A stretch of 64,000 nt of DNA from contig CAMNSZ010000008.1 in NCBI GenBank assembly GCA_946557105.1, forward strand, positions 1-64,000, given 5' to 3'. The notes under the pieces were generated by a model that saw only the letters and a program-made list of their open reading frames with translations, had not been told where the DNA came from and ran no database searches. The stretch is from an uncultured Lachnospiraceae bacterium. Lineage in GTDB: Bacteria > Bacillota > Clostridia > Lachnospirales > Lachnospiraceae. The position numbers and the translations under genes are program-made. Each line of letters begins with the position of its first letter. The stretch's first letter is position 1. This document shows, piece by piece, positions 27,622-32,894 of this stretch.

Positions 27622-27716
27622 CAACTCCATTATACCATCAACCATTGAGGATACGTTTTATTTTATAACGAAAAGAATCCCGCATTTATGTGGGTTTTGG
27701 CGTTTCGCAAACGCTT
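27622..27716 (+). repeat. Duplicated hairpin leader, copy 1
   Basis: About 95 bases that recur at 29072-29158. The unit begins AACTCCATTATACCAT and ends with two adjacent hairpins. Hairpin one is CCCGCA-TTTA-TGTGGG (27679-27694), followed by TTTT. Hairpin two is GGCGTTT-CGC-AAACGCT (27699-27715). It ends about 28 nt before the start of the secreted-protein gene. Confidence 0.85.
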
Positions 27717-27744
27717 GTTAATAAACTATAAAAAGGAGATAATA

Positions 27745-29071: not shown

Positions 29072-29158
29072 CAACTCTATTATACCATGGAGGAGATGTT
29101 CTATTTTATGACAAAAGGAATCTCGCATTTATGCGGGTTCTGGCGTTTCACAAACGCC
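29072..29158 (+). repeat. Duplicated hairpin leader, copy 2
   Basis: The second copy of the unit at 27622. It starts AACTCTATTATACCAT, contains hairpin CTCGCA-TTTA-TGCGGG (about 29122-29137) and hairpin GGCGTTT-CAC-AAACGCC (about 29142-29158). Differences from copy 1 mostly keep the pairing (C-G against G-U). It is followed by TATAAAAA and the start of the DUF1858 gene. Confidence 0.85.
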
Positions 29159-29195
29159 TATATAAAAAGCATTAAAATTCAGAAAGGAGAATATT

Positions 29196-29490: not shown

Positions 29491-30213
29491 TTAAATGTTA
29501 CCCAGAATTGAAATCGCATTGTCCGTCAGCAAGGCTTCATAATGCTCCTCCAAATAGGTACGGCTTATGGGAACGGCGCGTTGTAAAGCGCCATACTCAG
29601 AAAGAATATTGCTCACTCTGTCAAAGGCTTCGGGGGTTTCCTCACCTTGAGTGAGTACCATAAGGTATCGGGAGGAACGCTCATCCTTATAGAGAGTGCT
29701 TATACCGCTATAGTGAGGGGCGATCAGAGCGGAAGCGTCCATTGCCTGCCTTAGAGTACCAAACAGGAAAATGCGGGTGTGGCCGGCAGGGGATATCTCG
29801 GTACCGGAAGGCTTTTCCACGGAAACATCCTCGGATACCTGATCCCTTTGAAGCTTGCGGAAAAGGTCTAAAACCTCATCGGAAGACTGGGACGTTACCT
29901 CCTCGTCTTCGTCCTCGTCACCGGCGGAAGGGGCAAATCTCGAAAAACGGGTGTCCAGCTCTTCGGGATCCTCCACCTTGGTAATTATAAGAACTATACA
30001 TTCCGCATTCAAGGGAATGGCTTCTATCATGAGAGGAATATCCTCTGCCTCAAATCCAAACTCAAAATTTGCCTGCTGCATCATATCGCGGAACAAATTC
30101 TTAGCCTTTTCCGTGCCGTAGGCTAGCTCGCTTAATTTTAATTCGCGGCTGGCAAGGTCTTCTCTGGTCAAGGTACAGCGAATTTGGTTTTCGTTTACTT
30201 TTTCGATTTTCAA
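29491..30213 (-). CDS. mecA: MecA-type ClpC adaptor protein
   Basis: A 240-aa adaptor that delivers substrates to ClpCP. The N-terminal domain (KIEKVNENQIRCTLTREDL, then FGFEAEDIPLMIEAIPL) is followed by an acidic linker (GDEDEDEE near 105) and the C-terminal ClpC-binding domain (TRIFLFGTLRQAMDASAL). I take TTG 30213 as the start. It restores the family N-terminus M-KIEKxNENQIRCTLT, and GGAAGGG lies 8 nt upstream. The ATG at 30237 adds eight unlike residues and sits in front of that site. It is monocistronic, and its AT-rich upstream region has TTGACT-like and TATAAT-like boxes. Confidence 0.92.
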   Translation of the reverse strand: MKIEKVNENQIRCTLTREDLASRELKLSELAYGTEKAKNLFRDMMQQANFEFGFEAEDIPLMIEAIPLNAECIVLIITKVEDPEELDTRFSRFAPSAGDEDEDEEVTSQSSDEVLDLFRKLQRDQVSEDVSVEKPSGTEISPAGHTRIFLFGTLRQAMDASALIAPHYSGISTLYKDERSSRYLMVLTQGEETPEAFDRVSNILSEYGALQRAVPISRTYLEEHYEALLTDNAISILGNI

Positions 30214-30356
30214 TACGACAACCCTTCCTTTCTGCATCGGGAGGATGCTGAAATCAAAATTGTTACTTTGAATAAAAGTATATTATACTTTCATCACTTT
30301 TAAGTCAATAGGAGTAAATATAGTTTAAAAATTTTTAATAAATTTGAGAATTTCTC

Positions 30357-30385
30357 TTGCCAAAATTCGGTATATCAGTTATACT
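30357..30385 (+). promoter_or_regulatory. Promoter of the candidate structured RNA
   Basis: TTGCCA (30357-30362) and TATACT (30380-30385) are 17 bases apart. The expected start site, about 6-7 nt later, falls on the 5' arm of the closing stem of the RNA. Confidence 0.75.
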
Positions 30386-30390
30386 TTAAC

Positions 30391-30692
30391 AAGTGAATGC
30401 CTTCGGTACTCATGTACGGAAAGGGGGCAGGCAGTCTTGATTTTCAGTTGATTTCAGGAACAATTCGTTCCGGCTCATCCTTGATGCTTCTATATTGTAT
30501 ATACATTATAACATATTATATGGCATAAATATAGTTGCTGACATAATTAATTTTTTTTCAGGATGTCTTACAAGCATATGCGTGCTTGATCATAGTAATT
30601 CAACTAATACTTTTCACCTTTATAATTCATTTTAAACTATATTTTTTTAACAAATTTTGTTAATTATAATGTACTGCCGAAGGTGTTTGCTT
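30391..30692 (+). ncRNA. Candidate ~302-nt structured RNA
   Basis: The ends of this gene-free stretch are complementary. Bases 30391-30406 (AAGTGAATGCCTTCGG) pair with 30677-30692 (CCGAAGGTGTTTGCTT) over 16 consecutive positions: 12 Watson-Crick and 4 G-U. The pairing continues as TAC/GTA after a 3-base bulge. Inside, GTAC-TCAT-GTAC and GGAAC-AATTC-GTTCC hairpins are visible. A sigma-A promoter is correctly placed for a 5' end at the stem. Size and closing stem recall large bacterial RNAs; I considered tmRNA, RNase P and 6S and found none of their diagnostic sequences. It could be a raiA-like or new class, or a long leader of the next gene. Confidence 0.55.
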
Positions 30693-30767
30693 AAATAAGC
30701 CGTCCAATCGTCAATAATATATCACATATCCTTTTGGGGAACGGTTTAAGAAGGAAGGGAGGTATCT

Positions 30768-30977
30768 TTGCAAAATAGCAATGCAGAGCAAATGCTAGCC
30801 CTTTTTGAACAAATGCAGAAAACGGGAACGGAATTTTTTGTGGACGGAGAGCTTATGCTTCCGAGAGAAGCCGTGGCAAGGGCAGTGAAGGAGGATAGTC
30901 CTTATATGGCTGACTTTGTCATCGGGGAAGGAGGGAGGGTAGAGCAAATACGTTTCGACAAAATTAATCTGCTTTAA
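30768..30977 (+). CDS. 69-aa conserved-looking hypothetical protein
   Basis: A 69-aa acidic protein starting at TTG 30768, behind a strong GGGAGG with correct spacing. Features are LALFEQMQKTGTEFFVDGEL, a Pro-Arg turn (LPREAVARAV) and a C-terminus of VEQIRFDKINLL. No membrane segment, signal or motif is recognised. An ATG at 30780 could serve instead. It could be translated from the transcript that begins at the candidate RNA promoter, or from its own promoter. Confidence 0.6.
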   Translation: MQNSNAEQMLALFEQMQKTGTEFFVDGELMLPREAVARAVKEDSPYMADFVIGEGGRVEQIRFDKINLL

Positions 30978-31069
30978 TTCCACAGTATAATACCATGGAT
31001 TGCCTCTCATGCTGACAGAAAGTGGAATTTTGTCAAAATTGGTAATGACGTTGTCGGGTTAGTATGTTA

Positions 31070-31112
31070 GAATGTAACTGTCCGGTTCTATTTTTGCCGG
31101 ACGGTTGCATTC
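31070..31112 (+). terminator. Long hairpin, possible terminator or attenuator
   Basis: GAATGTAACTGTCCGG (31070-31085) pairs along its length with CCGGACGGTTGCATTC (31097-31112). There is no T run after it, so simple intrinsic termination is doubtful. It lies between the 69-aa gene and the GH18 gene. Confidence 0.5.
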
Positions 31113-31193
31113 ATTTCATAGAGTAAGCGGACAGTCGCCGGCATTGTTTAAAAAGCGAATGTTCCGGCAATGCTATAAGAAAGGTATAAAAGT

Positions 31194-32894
31194 ATGAAGA
31201 AAAAATTTTTCCCGGTTTTGATTGCGTTGATTCTAATTATTTTAATTGCCGGTATTGCTGTAGGGAGCTTTCTTGTGGAAAAATACTCCTATAGCAAGGA
31301 GAGGGCTGATTTAAATGAATATTTTCAGGTGTCGGGCGACCGGATGGCAATCATTTTACAGGATGATATGCTGGAGGAGAAGGCTGTTTTAAAAAACGGT
31401 ATCTGCTATTTTGATCTGGCTACAATACATCAGTACCTCAATGAGATCTTCTATGTGGACAGAGCGGAAAACCTGCTTTTGTATACAACTGCGACGGAAA
31501 TCATTCAATCAGACTTAGGAGGCTCAACATATAACGACGCTTCAGGAAATCAGGATGCGGGATATGTGATTGGTTTTGTGGAGAACGATACGGTATATAT
31601 TGCCGCCGAATTTGTGAAAAGGTATACTAATTTTTCTTATGATATATATGATATGCATATTCAGATTTATAACGAGTGGGGAACAAGACAGGTTGCGGAG
31701 ATTAAGAAAAATACCCAGATACGTCTGAAGGGAGGCATAAAGAGTCCGATTTTATCCGAAGTAAAAGCGGGGGATACGGTTGAGCTTTTGGAACGGATGG
31801 AAACATGGAGCAGAGTAAAGAGTCAGGATTCGATTATCGGTTATATTGAAAACAAATTTCTGATTAATGAGAACACTGTCTCCGAGACGCCGGTAACGGA
31901 TTATACAGCGCCGGATTATACAAGCATTGCCATGGACGGGAAGGTTTCCTTGGGCTGGCATTCCATAGGAGGAACAGGCGGTAACGCTACATTGGACAGT
32001 ATGATTGCGGGTACAAAGGGGATGAATGTAATTGCGCCTACATGGTTTAGCATGAATGATAACGAGGGAGGCTTTAGAAGCTTTGCCTCTTCTGATTATG
32101 TTGCCAGAGCGCACTCTCTGGGTTTGAAGGTGTGGGGAGTTTTGGATAATTTTAATTATAAGAACGAAACGGGAACGGATGTGGACAGCTTTGCGGTACT
32201 CTCTTCCACCACCAGAAGACAGAGGCTGGCGCAAGGTATCGCCGATGCGGCTGTGAGTTTGGGATTAGACGGTATCAACATTGATTTTGAACAGCTGGGG
32301 GCGGACTGCGGAGAACATTTTGTTCAGTTTTTAAGAGAGCTTTCTATTTTGTGCCGAAGTAATAATCTGGTACTCTCGATTGACAATTATGTTCCCTTTA
32401 ATTTTAATGAATACTATCGTCTTGACATTCAGGGGCAGATTGCGGATTATGTGATTATAATGGGGTACGACGAGCATTGGCATGGCAGTGGTAATCCGGG
32501 CAGCGTGGCAAGTATTAATTATGTTTCCAACGGCATTTCCAAGACGGTGGAAAAAGTACCGGCAAAAAAGGTTATCAATGCATTACCCTTTTATACAATT
32601 GTGTGGACGACGGAGGGAACCACCGTTACGGACGAATACCTGACAATCGCCAGAACACCTGAGTTTTTGAGTAGTCTGGGTATGCAGCCCGTGTGGGATG
32701 AAGAGACCTGCCAGAATTATTTGGAGTGGACGGAAGGGAATAAGTTGCGTAACGTTTGGCTTGAGGATGCGGAATCCATTCGTGTGAAGCTGAACGTAAT
32801 GAACACTAACAATATCGGAGGCGTGGCAGTGTGGAGGCTGGGCTACGGTAATCAGGCGGTATGGGAGCTTATAAATGCGTATGTTAATTCATAG
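31194..32894 (+). CDS. Membrane-anchored GH18 wall hydrolase with SH3 domain
   Basis: A 566-aa protein. A signal/anchor helix (about 5-28) is followed by a copper-amine-oxidase-like or stalk region (about 40-165), a bacterial SH3 domain (about 168-225, TQIRLKGGIKSPILSEV) and a GH18 barrel (about 250-560). The catalytic line reads DGINIDFE near residue 360, with Asp and Glu in the catalytic places and Asn at the first inner position, as in many YaaH/SleL-like enzymes. MGYDEHW and GVAVWRLGYG are conserved. It probably cleaves peptidoglycan N-acetylglucosamine linkages, perhaps in spore or wall turnover. A terminator follows directly. Confidence 0.88.
   Translation: MKKKFFPVLIALILIILIAGIAVGSFLVEKYSYSKERADLNEYFQVSGDRMAIILQDDMLEEKAVLKNGICYFDLATIHQYLNEIFYVDRAENLLLYTTATEIIQSDLGGSTYNDASGNQDAGYVIGFVENDTVYIAAEFVKRYTNFSYDIYDMHIQIYNEWGTRQVAEIKKNTQIRLKGGIKSPILSEVKAGDTVELLERMETWSRVKSQDSIIGYIENKFLINENTVSETPVTDYTAPDYTSIAMDGKVSLGWHSIGGTGGNATLDSMIAGTKGMNVIAPTWFSMNDNEGGFRSFASSDYVARAHSLGLKVWGVLDNFNYKNETGTDVDSFAVLSSTTRRQRLAQGIADAAVSLGLDGINIDFEQLGADCGEHFVQFLRELSILCRSNNLVLSIDNYVPFNFNEYYRLDIQGQIADYVIIMGYDEHWHGSGNPGSVASINYVSNGISKTVEKVPAKKVINALPFYTIVWTTEGTTVTDEYLTIARTPEFLSSLGMQPVWDEETCQNYLEWTEGNKLRNVWLEDAESIRVKLNVMNTNNIGGVAVWRLGYGNQAVWELINAYVNS

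Follow-up and report, generated by a model that had tools for sequence, protein, structure and literature searches.

What is made from the stretch that separates mecA from the next large gene in this Lachnospiraceae contig? In the window, that is the whole stretch of 64,000 nucleotides that was analysed, mecA (29491–30237, minus strand; Pfam MecA, E-value 4.7e-66) lies divergently from a promoter (30357–30385, plus strand) which consists of a −35 element TTGCCA, a 17-bp spacer and a −10 element TATACT, and a GH18/SH3 gene (gh18, 31194–32894, plus strand) is found downstream. The first-pass annotation, made from the sequence alone, placed here a candidate structured RNA of 302 nt, with its own promoter and without an open frame, and suggested that it may be raiA-like or something new. 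Conservation, promoter and covariation support a structured RNA that has its own promoter and may be new, but the kinship with raiA was not borne out. The reading we favor, with a probability of about 0.5, is that of a regulatory or dual-function RNA with a bistable 5′ end: the RNA would be the selected product, and the small ORF that follows it an optional passenger or a second product.

Promoter-like sites are abundant in this region (13 on both strands of 2 kb, versus 4.8 in shuffled sequences), so that the promoter match by itself is little proof. The promoter is kept in all 52 loci for which the upstream sequence is available, and the 17-bp spacer, already pointed out in the window, is found in 51 of them. 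No intrinsic terminator-like site was found on the RNA strand within 29500–31500.

The sequence of the RNA occurs once in its own genome, and 62 non-redundant loci from the same genus and its near kin carry the RNA. It adjoins mecA wherever the locus extends to that gene: mecA is matched, upstream and divergent, in 57 of the 62 loci, and the remaining five start at most 115 bases from the RNA. Similarly, gh18 is downstream in 60 of the 62 loci, the two others ending before they reach it, and DUF1858 is found in 42. When 60 sampled relatives, 36 of them from the same genus, were searched by BLAST, the RNA was found in 25 of these 36; the matches L024, L028 and L029, from other families of the order, were taken as chance and excluded. 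A pattern derived from its most conserved block retrieved 61 stretches, many of them in Acetatifactor or other Lachnospiraceae, seven of which are unconfirmed by profile.

Two models were used to follow the RNA further. R1 is a sequence-only model of one conserved block, and at an E-value of 0.01 it matches 19 of 381 genomes of the order outside the genus. The weak matches among these are treated as background (L103, L105, L107, L108 and L109 were given to the second model and all failed), so that the count obtained with R1 inside the genus, 107 of 138 genomes (57 of 66 among the better genomes), includes some weak matches, a few of the weakest being perhaps due to chance. R2 is a full covariance model built from 24 sequences, among them that of the window, whose match at 30387–30692 is therefore that of a training sequence. 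It recovers all 31 held-out loci tried, from the 38 outside its training set, which had all been found originally by sequence match. Among 20 mecA loci from other genera of Lachnospiraceae, R2 finds the RNA in four, at the right place upstream of mecA (E-values from 3e-4 to 2.4e-3), and misses 16. Over 397 genomes of the family it gives five matches, of which two are in other genera (E-values of 1.9e-14 and 4.4e-14); one of these two lies beside mecA, the other beside the small ORF and gh18, mecA being absent from the fetched stretch. A search of 291 genomes of the class gives two matches, each of them in the genus. In total, R2 reaches six other genera, which it matches more weakly, and this reach may be understated because the large searches scored only 4–6 candidates per genome.

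On the plus strand, the fold of 30390–30700 is more stable than that of 99 out of 100 sequences shuffled by dinucleotide (z −3.2). Since the minus strand gives a stable fold as well (z −2.65), the folding energy cannot assign the strand. The assignment to the plus strand comes from the G-U cells of the alignment, which outnumber the A-C cells (180 versus 50), together with the promoter. All the elements of the RNA described hereafter are on this strand.

The first-pass annotation had made its proposal depend on covariation in relatives, and compensatory changes were found. In an alignment of 50 rows (A2, the 62 loci minus nine which are not full-length by profile and minus L016, L022 and L061, for which the anchor failed), 93.2% of the cells of 42 named pairs are paired, 25 pairs show two-sided change, and 121 cells carry a double change compared to 38.4 (sd 7.4) in shuffles, while sliding the partner by 1–3 columns makes the pairing fall to 30–43%; these shuffled and slid controls only partly account for the relatedness of the loci. 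A hand-segmented alignment, in which the anchor failed in 16 of 53 loci and 37 were kept, led to a set of 24 rows (A3) where 92.6% of the cells of 55 pairs are paired, with two-sided change in 24 pairs and 63 cells versus 22.7 in shuffles. Judging from sequence comparisons, the fold is conserved by evolution in the genus and, in an altered form, in some related genera.

The structured RNA proper, domain 1, spans 30391–30692, the 302 nt originally claimed, and is closed by the stem P1. The 5′ strand of P1 (30391–30408, AAGTGAATGCCTTCGGTA) pairs with its 3′ strand (30675–30692, TGCCGAAGGTGTTTGCTT) over 18 contiguous positions, five of them G-U, instead of the 16 bases first noticed; this pairing is 6 sd above that of shuffles of the 5′ strand. 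Two-sided changes are seen in 14 of the 16 P1 pairs counted in the 50-row alignment, and the own partner is better than swapped partners in 0.877 of the comparisons (n = 52). P1b prolongs the closing stem beyond a small asymmetric loop, by pairing of the second GUAC (30414–30417) with the GUAC at 30671–30674; it is paired in 100% of the cells, with two-sided changes in three of its four pairs, in the 50-row alignment, and is nearly invariant in the 24-row one. P1b is followed by a purine arm (30418–30431) that resembles a Shine-Dalgarno (SD) sequence, AAGGAGG or a near form being present, by eye, in most relatives. In the local fold, this arm can pair with the 5′ strand of P1.

Inside the domain, P2 (GUUGA at 30447–30451 with UCAAC at 30600–30604) is paired in 98% of the cells and nearly invariant, which is little evidence for or against it. 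The inner hairpins announced by the first-pass annotation are compensated to differing degrees. P4 (GGAAC...GUUCC, 30457–30471) shows two-sided changes in four of its five pairs and 88.6% of paired cells, and P5 (CAAGC...GCUUG, 30571–30588) in one of five pairs, with 77% and 92% of the cells paired in its two parts. P3 (CAUCCUU at 30476–30482 with CAGGAUG at 30559–30565) is paired in 95.6% of the cells, with two-sided changes in three of seven pairs. The most conserved block (30559–30637), as seen in alignment A1 and with model R1, comprises GGATGTCTTACAAG, the P5 hairpin, TCAACTA, TTTTCAC and TATAATTCA. The comparisons support P1 with P1b most strongly; P4 is well supported, support is moderate for P3, P5 and the middle hairpin, and P2 hardly varies.

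Could the conservation reflect a short peptide, or an element that acts only as DNA? Of the 62 loci, 61 have a conserved ATG, as ATGTCTTACA or a close variant, which would open a frame for AUGUCUUACAAG (MSYK...). The frame that starts there ends after anything from 4 to 153 codons, the distances between the conserved blocks occupy all three frames, and no conserved ORF runs through the RNA in the 62 loci, in keeping with the absence of an open frame noted in the window. This coding frame was therefore rejected, and the compensatory changes and the G-U excess indicate an RNA, which makes a peptide or a purely DNA-level element very improbable.

The RNA does not fall into a class for which it was searched. 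In the scan of Rfam 15 that the first-pass annotation had suggested, no family except tRNA reaches its gathering score in the window; when E-values as high as 10 are admitted, the only matches are to two eukaryotic families (2.2 and 8.9), far below their cut-offs, and 14 loci from other genera give no match either. The annotation had seen no landmark of tmRNA, RNase P, SRP or 6S RNA, and the covariance models indeed give no such match at the locus. The genome's single match to 6S RNA (RF00013) is elsewhere (contig C12, 15428–15631, 63 bits), as is its single match to the bacterial large SRP RNA (RF01854; contig C9, 19461–19702, 96.5 bits). RNase P RNA has no match at the locus, and the genome-wide search, made for type B, gave a weak match below the cut-off in contig C7 (1946–2359). 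In the window, neither ARAGORN nor Rfam detects tRNA-like ends or a tag frame of tmRNA at the locus.

The raiA RNA, or ModT, is similar in that it is encoded on the chromosomes of Bacillota, folds into a structure with complex junctions and has about 200 nt (the model of RF03072 has a length of 209), as described in the available part of PMC11706538. RF03072 has no match at the locus. It was silent too across the whole genome and across 146 genomes belonging to the order, but in both of these searches the control was equally silent, so that they do not establish its absence. According to the same part of that paper, the common neighbours of ModT are comFC (74%) and raiA (66%) (PMC11706538). 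The RNA of the window is without this synteny, which is common and not universal, and has mecA, GH18, often DUF1858 and the small ORF as neighbours instead; nor are an 18-bp closing stem and a competing local hairpin among the ModT features described in that part of the source (PMC11706538). OLE, ROOL and GOLLD are likewise large ornate bacterial RNAs (PMC12286853, in its available part), from which the RNA differs in that the window has, apart from tRNA, no Rfam match at gathering score, a difference that counts only for the classes that have Rfam models. The open-licence full texts searched hold no description of this RNA: PMC11109978 and PMC8632094 contain no mention of mecA or of the Lachnospiraceae names tried, and PMC5171806 no mention of mecA.

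Downstream of domain 1, two hairpins frame the small ORF. P8 (30696–30748) has the conserved loop parts AUAUAUCACA and CCUUUUGG, and its flanks prefer their own partner in 0.804 of the comparisons (n = 24, the loci out of 62 found by a strict pattern, of which L084 looks misplaced and L060 is cut off). P9 (30976–31029) has a conserved loop, UUGCCUCUCAUGCUGA, which is C-rich and resembles an anti-SD sequence, and an own-partner score of 0.843 in the 51 of 62 loci found by pattern. The folds of these hairpins in the window alone are unremarkable (z −1.2 for P8 and −0.2 for P9). Within the genus, the comparisons support the promoter, P1, P1b, P4, the stems of P8 and P9 and, in part, P3 and P5.

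The ORF itself (30768–30977, plus strand, 69 aa) begins with TTG, and the product of the window copy has no match in Pfam or NCBIfam. Does the RNA exist only as an elaborate 5′ leader that controls the translation of this ORF in cis, as a riboswitch or by binding a protein, with P8 as the expression platform? This is possible, if on balance doubtful. As in riboswitches and leaders, there are alternative pairings near the 5′ end, and P8 stands just 5′ of an ORF with an SD: of the 60 loci extending to gh18, 41 have the ORF after the RNA, by eye behind P8 and its own SD. The pyrimidines of P8 could pair with the SD-like arms, and no terminator-like site separates the RNA from the ORF. The protein family of about 70 aa, with the signature YMADxVxDExGxLxELRYDKI, is also matched in 21 of 48 mecA-upstream stretches from other genera (nine of which are seeds of the profile); from its position beside mecA, this protein could be a candidate adaptor partner. 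Unlike a leader, however, the RNA, with its P1, is kept in the 19 of the 60 loci where the ORF is not recognised. Here "missing" means no profile match at an E-value of 1, a test that a strongly diverged ORF could escape, and at this position unmatched frames of at least 90 codons are present in L022, L043 and L091. In addition, the P9 stem is conserved although it lies 3′ of the ORF, and, in contrast to known leaders, no Rfam match above the cut-off was obtained.

On a MecA tree of 64 rows, which includes 17 of the 19 ORF-less loci as well as L156 and L196 from other genera, seven changes in the presence of the ORF are needed, at least three of which are forced by well-supported branches. Loss is the likelier direction, since other genera carry the ORF, and gains are also possible. 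The RNA without ORF is found in L196 too, as a match of R2, and less surely in L156, which gives no R2 match and a shuffle p-value of 0.075 for P1. Since the presence of the ORF changed at least three times and the RNA persisted throughout, the RNA is probably more than the leader of the ORF. That the ORF comes and goes beside a constant RNA is the chief reason for thinking that selection probably acts on the RNA itself.

The RNA might instead regulate gh18 in cis, by read-through and attenuation at P9. The presence of gh18 downstream in nearly every locus speaks for it, as does the position of P9 immediately 5′ of a promoter-like site of gh18 (31045–31073). But this site, which recurs by eye in relatives, gives gh18 a putative promoter of its own 3′ of P9, and P9 is, by eye, without a regular U tract. 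We consider this reading unlikely.

The same address was inspected in other genera, where 19 of the 48 mecA-upstream stretches combine a TATCAC motif with a suitably spaced promoter. In seven of the 19, the sequences are unrelated and the end pairing beats all 200 shuffles, with lengths of 27, 18, 17, 18, 18, 14 and 13 nt, mismatches included. For the other 12, a P1-like end pairing does not beat all 200 shuffles. P8 and P9 are not clearly supported in other genera (0.667, n = 6, and 0.609, n = 11, respectively). In eight other stretches of the 48 (L146, L160, L164, L165, L166, L169, L170 and L177), a gene for a Ser/Thr-type protein kinase replaces the RNA, as judged by eye and, for two fragments, by Pfam. 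Several of the kinase leaders begin, by eye, in a similar way (AGAAG..TA) and contain an AAGGAGG placed so as to serve as SD. Because of this shared start and AAGGAGG, the purine arm of the RNA may have descended from a ribosome-binding site.

These loci also bear on the two states of the 5′ end. In 14 loci from other genera, the 5′ segment, compared with its pairing to the arms and bodies of the other genera, scores 0.805 with its own adjacent arm and 0.912 with its own distal body, and both values are reached in none of 5000 permutations; five of the 19 loci, without a recognisable arm, were dropped for this test, and the −10 boxes were picked by eye. The segment that pairs locally likewise prefers its own distal body (0.868, in a set that readmitted L149 and L150, their windows being placed by hand once the local hairpins were known, and that omitted L168 and L180). 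Within the genus, the local pairing of the 5′ segment with the arm does not covary (0.548, n = 52). The alternative 5′ pairing is thus supported across genera and unsupported inside the genus.

The purine arm (30418–30431) and the P9 loop (31000–31015) are complementary, of the GGAGGCAGC/GCUGCCUC type, and this complementarity exceeds 95 of 100 shuffles in only 24 of 46 loci. Within the genus, neither the pair formed by the arm and P8 (0.473, n = 24) nor that formed by the arm and P9 (0.47, n = 20) covaries. A contact of the arm with P8 or with the P9 loop was therefore rejected as a covarying pairing and is kept as an idea.

A stand-alone scaffold of a ribonucleoprotein, or a catalytic RNA, of no recognised class but working in the manner of raiA/ModT or OLE, is another way of reading the domain, and the alternative pairing at the 5′ end would then be irrelevant. 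The size, the multi-branched fold, the conserved unpaired stretches, the single match in its own genome and the wide presence in the genus according to R1 would suit such an RNA. To our knowledge, it has no known protein partner. The RNA drifts fast beyond the genus, where R2 finds it in four of 20 loci, unlike a housekeeping ribonucleoprotein, and in other genera the alternative pairing shows specificity for its partner. This reading therefore seems quite unlikely.

We return to the favored reading, a regulatory or dual-function RNA with a bistable 5′ end. The housekeeping-type promoter would give a transcript that starts near 30388–30391. Its first 300 nt or so would form the multi-branched domain closed by P1, followed by P8 and P9 with, in most species, the small ORF between them. 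In the nascent RNA, the 5′ segment would pair first with the adjacent SD-like purine arm; once the 3′ strand of P1 is made, P1 would displace this local hairpin and free the arm. The freed arm may then pair with the C-rich parts of P8 and P9, or with ribosomes. Such a switch could set the availability of the C-rich P9 loop, with its CCUC core, for the SD sequences of other mRNAs, in trans.

RNAIII is a dual-function RNA with long-range pairing of its ends, an internal small ORF and a C-rich loop complementary to SD sequences. Compared by description only, the RNA of the window is similar to RNAIII as a long structured RNA with paired ends, a small ORF and a C-rich, SD-complementary loop, but differs from it in that its ORF is often missing. 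A bolder and less likely reading is a class of Lachnospiraceae RNA in which evolution would keep one 5′ segment complementary both to an adjacent SD-like arm and to a strand about 300 nt away. Completion of the domain would then unmask an SD mimic whose pairing partner is a C-rich, anti-SD-like loop; the ORF would be dispensable and translation would be affected in trans.

A family of RNAs with a conserved structure and no match in Rfam 15 would join the large bacterial RNAs as a new entry, and this one belongs to a family of common gut bacteria, the Lachnospiraceae. Its function is directly testable because the RNA lies at a fixed address between mecA and the GH18 gene, occurs in nature both with the small ORF and without it, and is carried by a bacterium in culture, Acetatifactor muris DSM 23669 (locus L054).

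Several other features of the locus are worth recording. A palindrome, AAAGTATATTATACTTT, beside AAGTCAATAG (30276–30312), overlaps the divergent promoter of mecA and looks like an operator, hence a candidate; by eye, variant forms occur in many loci, and AGTCAATAG in most. Just 5′ of the promoter-like site of gh18, at 31030–31075, GGTAATGAC is found in most loci by eye, often inside the longer TTTGTCAAAATTGGTAATGACG, and is possibly the site of a regulator. A 94-nt repeat, 80% identical between its two copies (27641–27734 and 29084–29177), precedes two different genes, in the region of a 390-aa ORF and at the DUF1858 gene, respectively.
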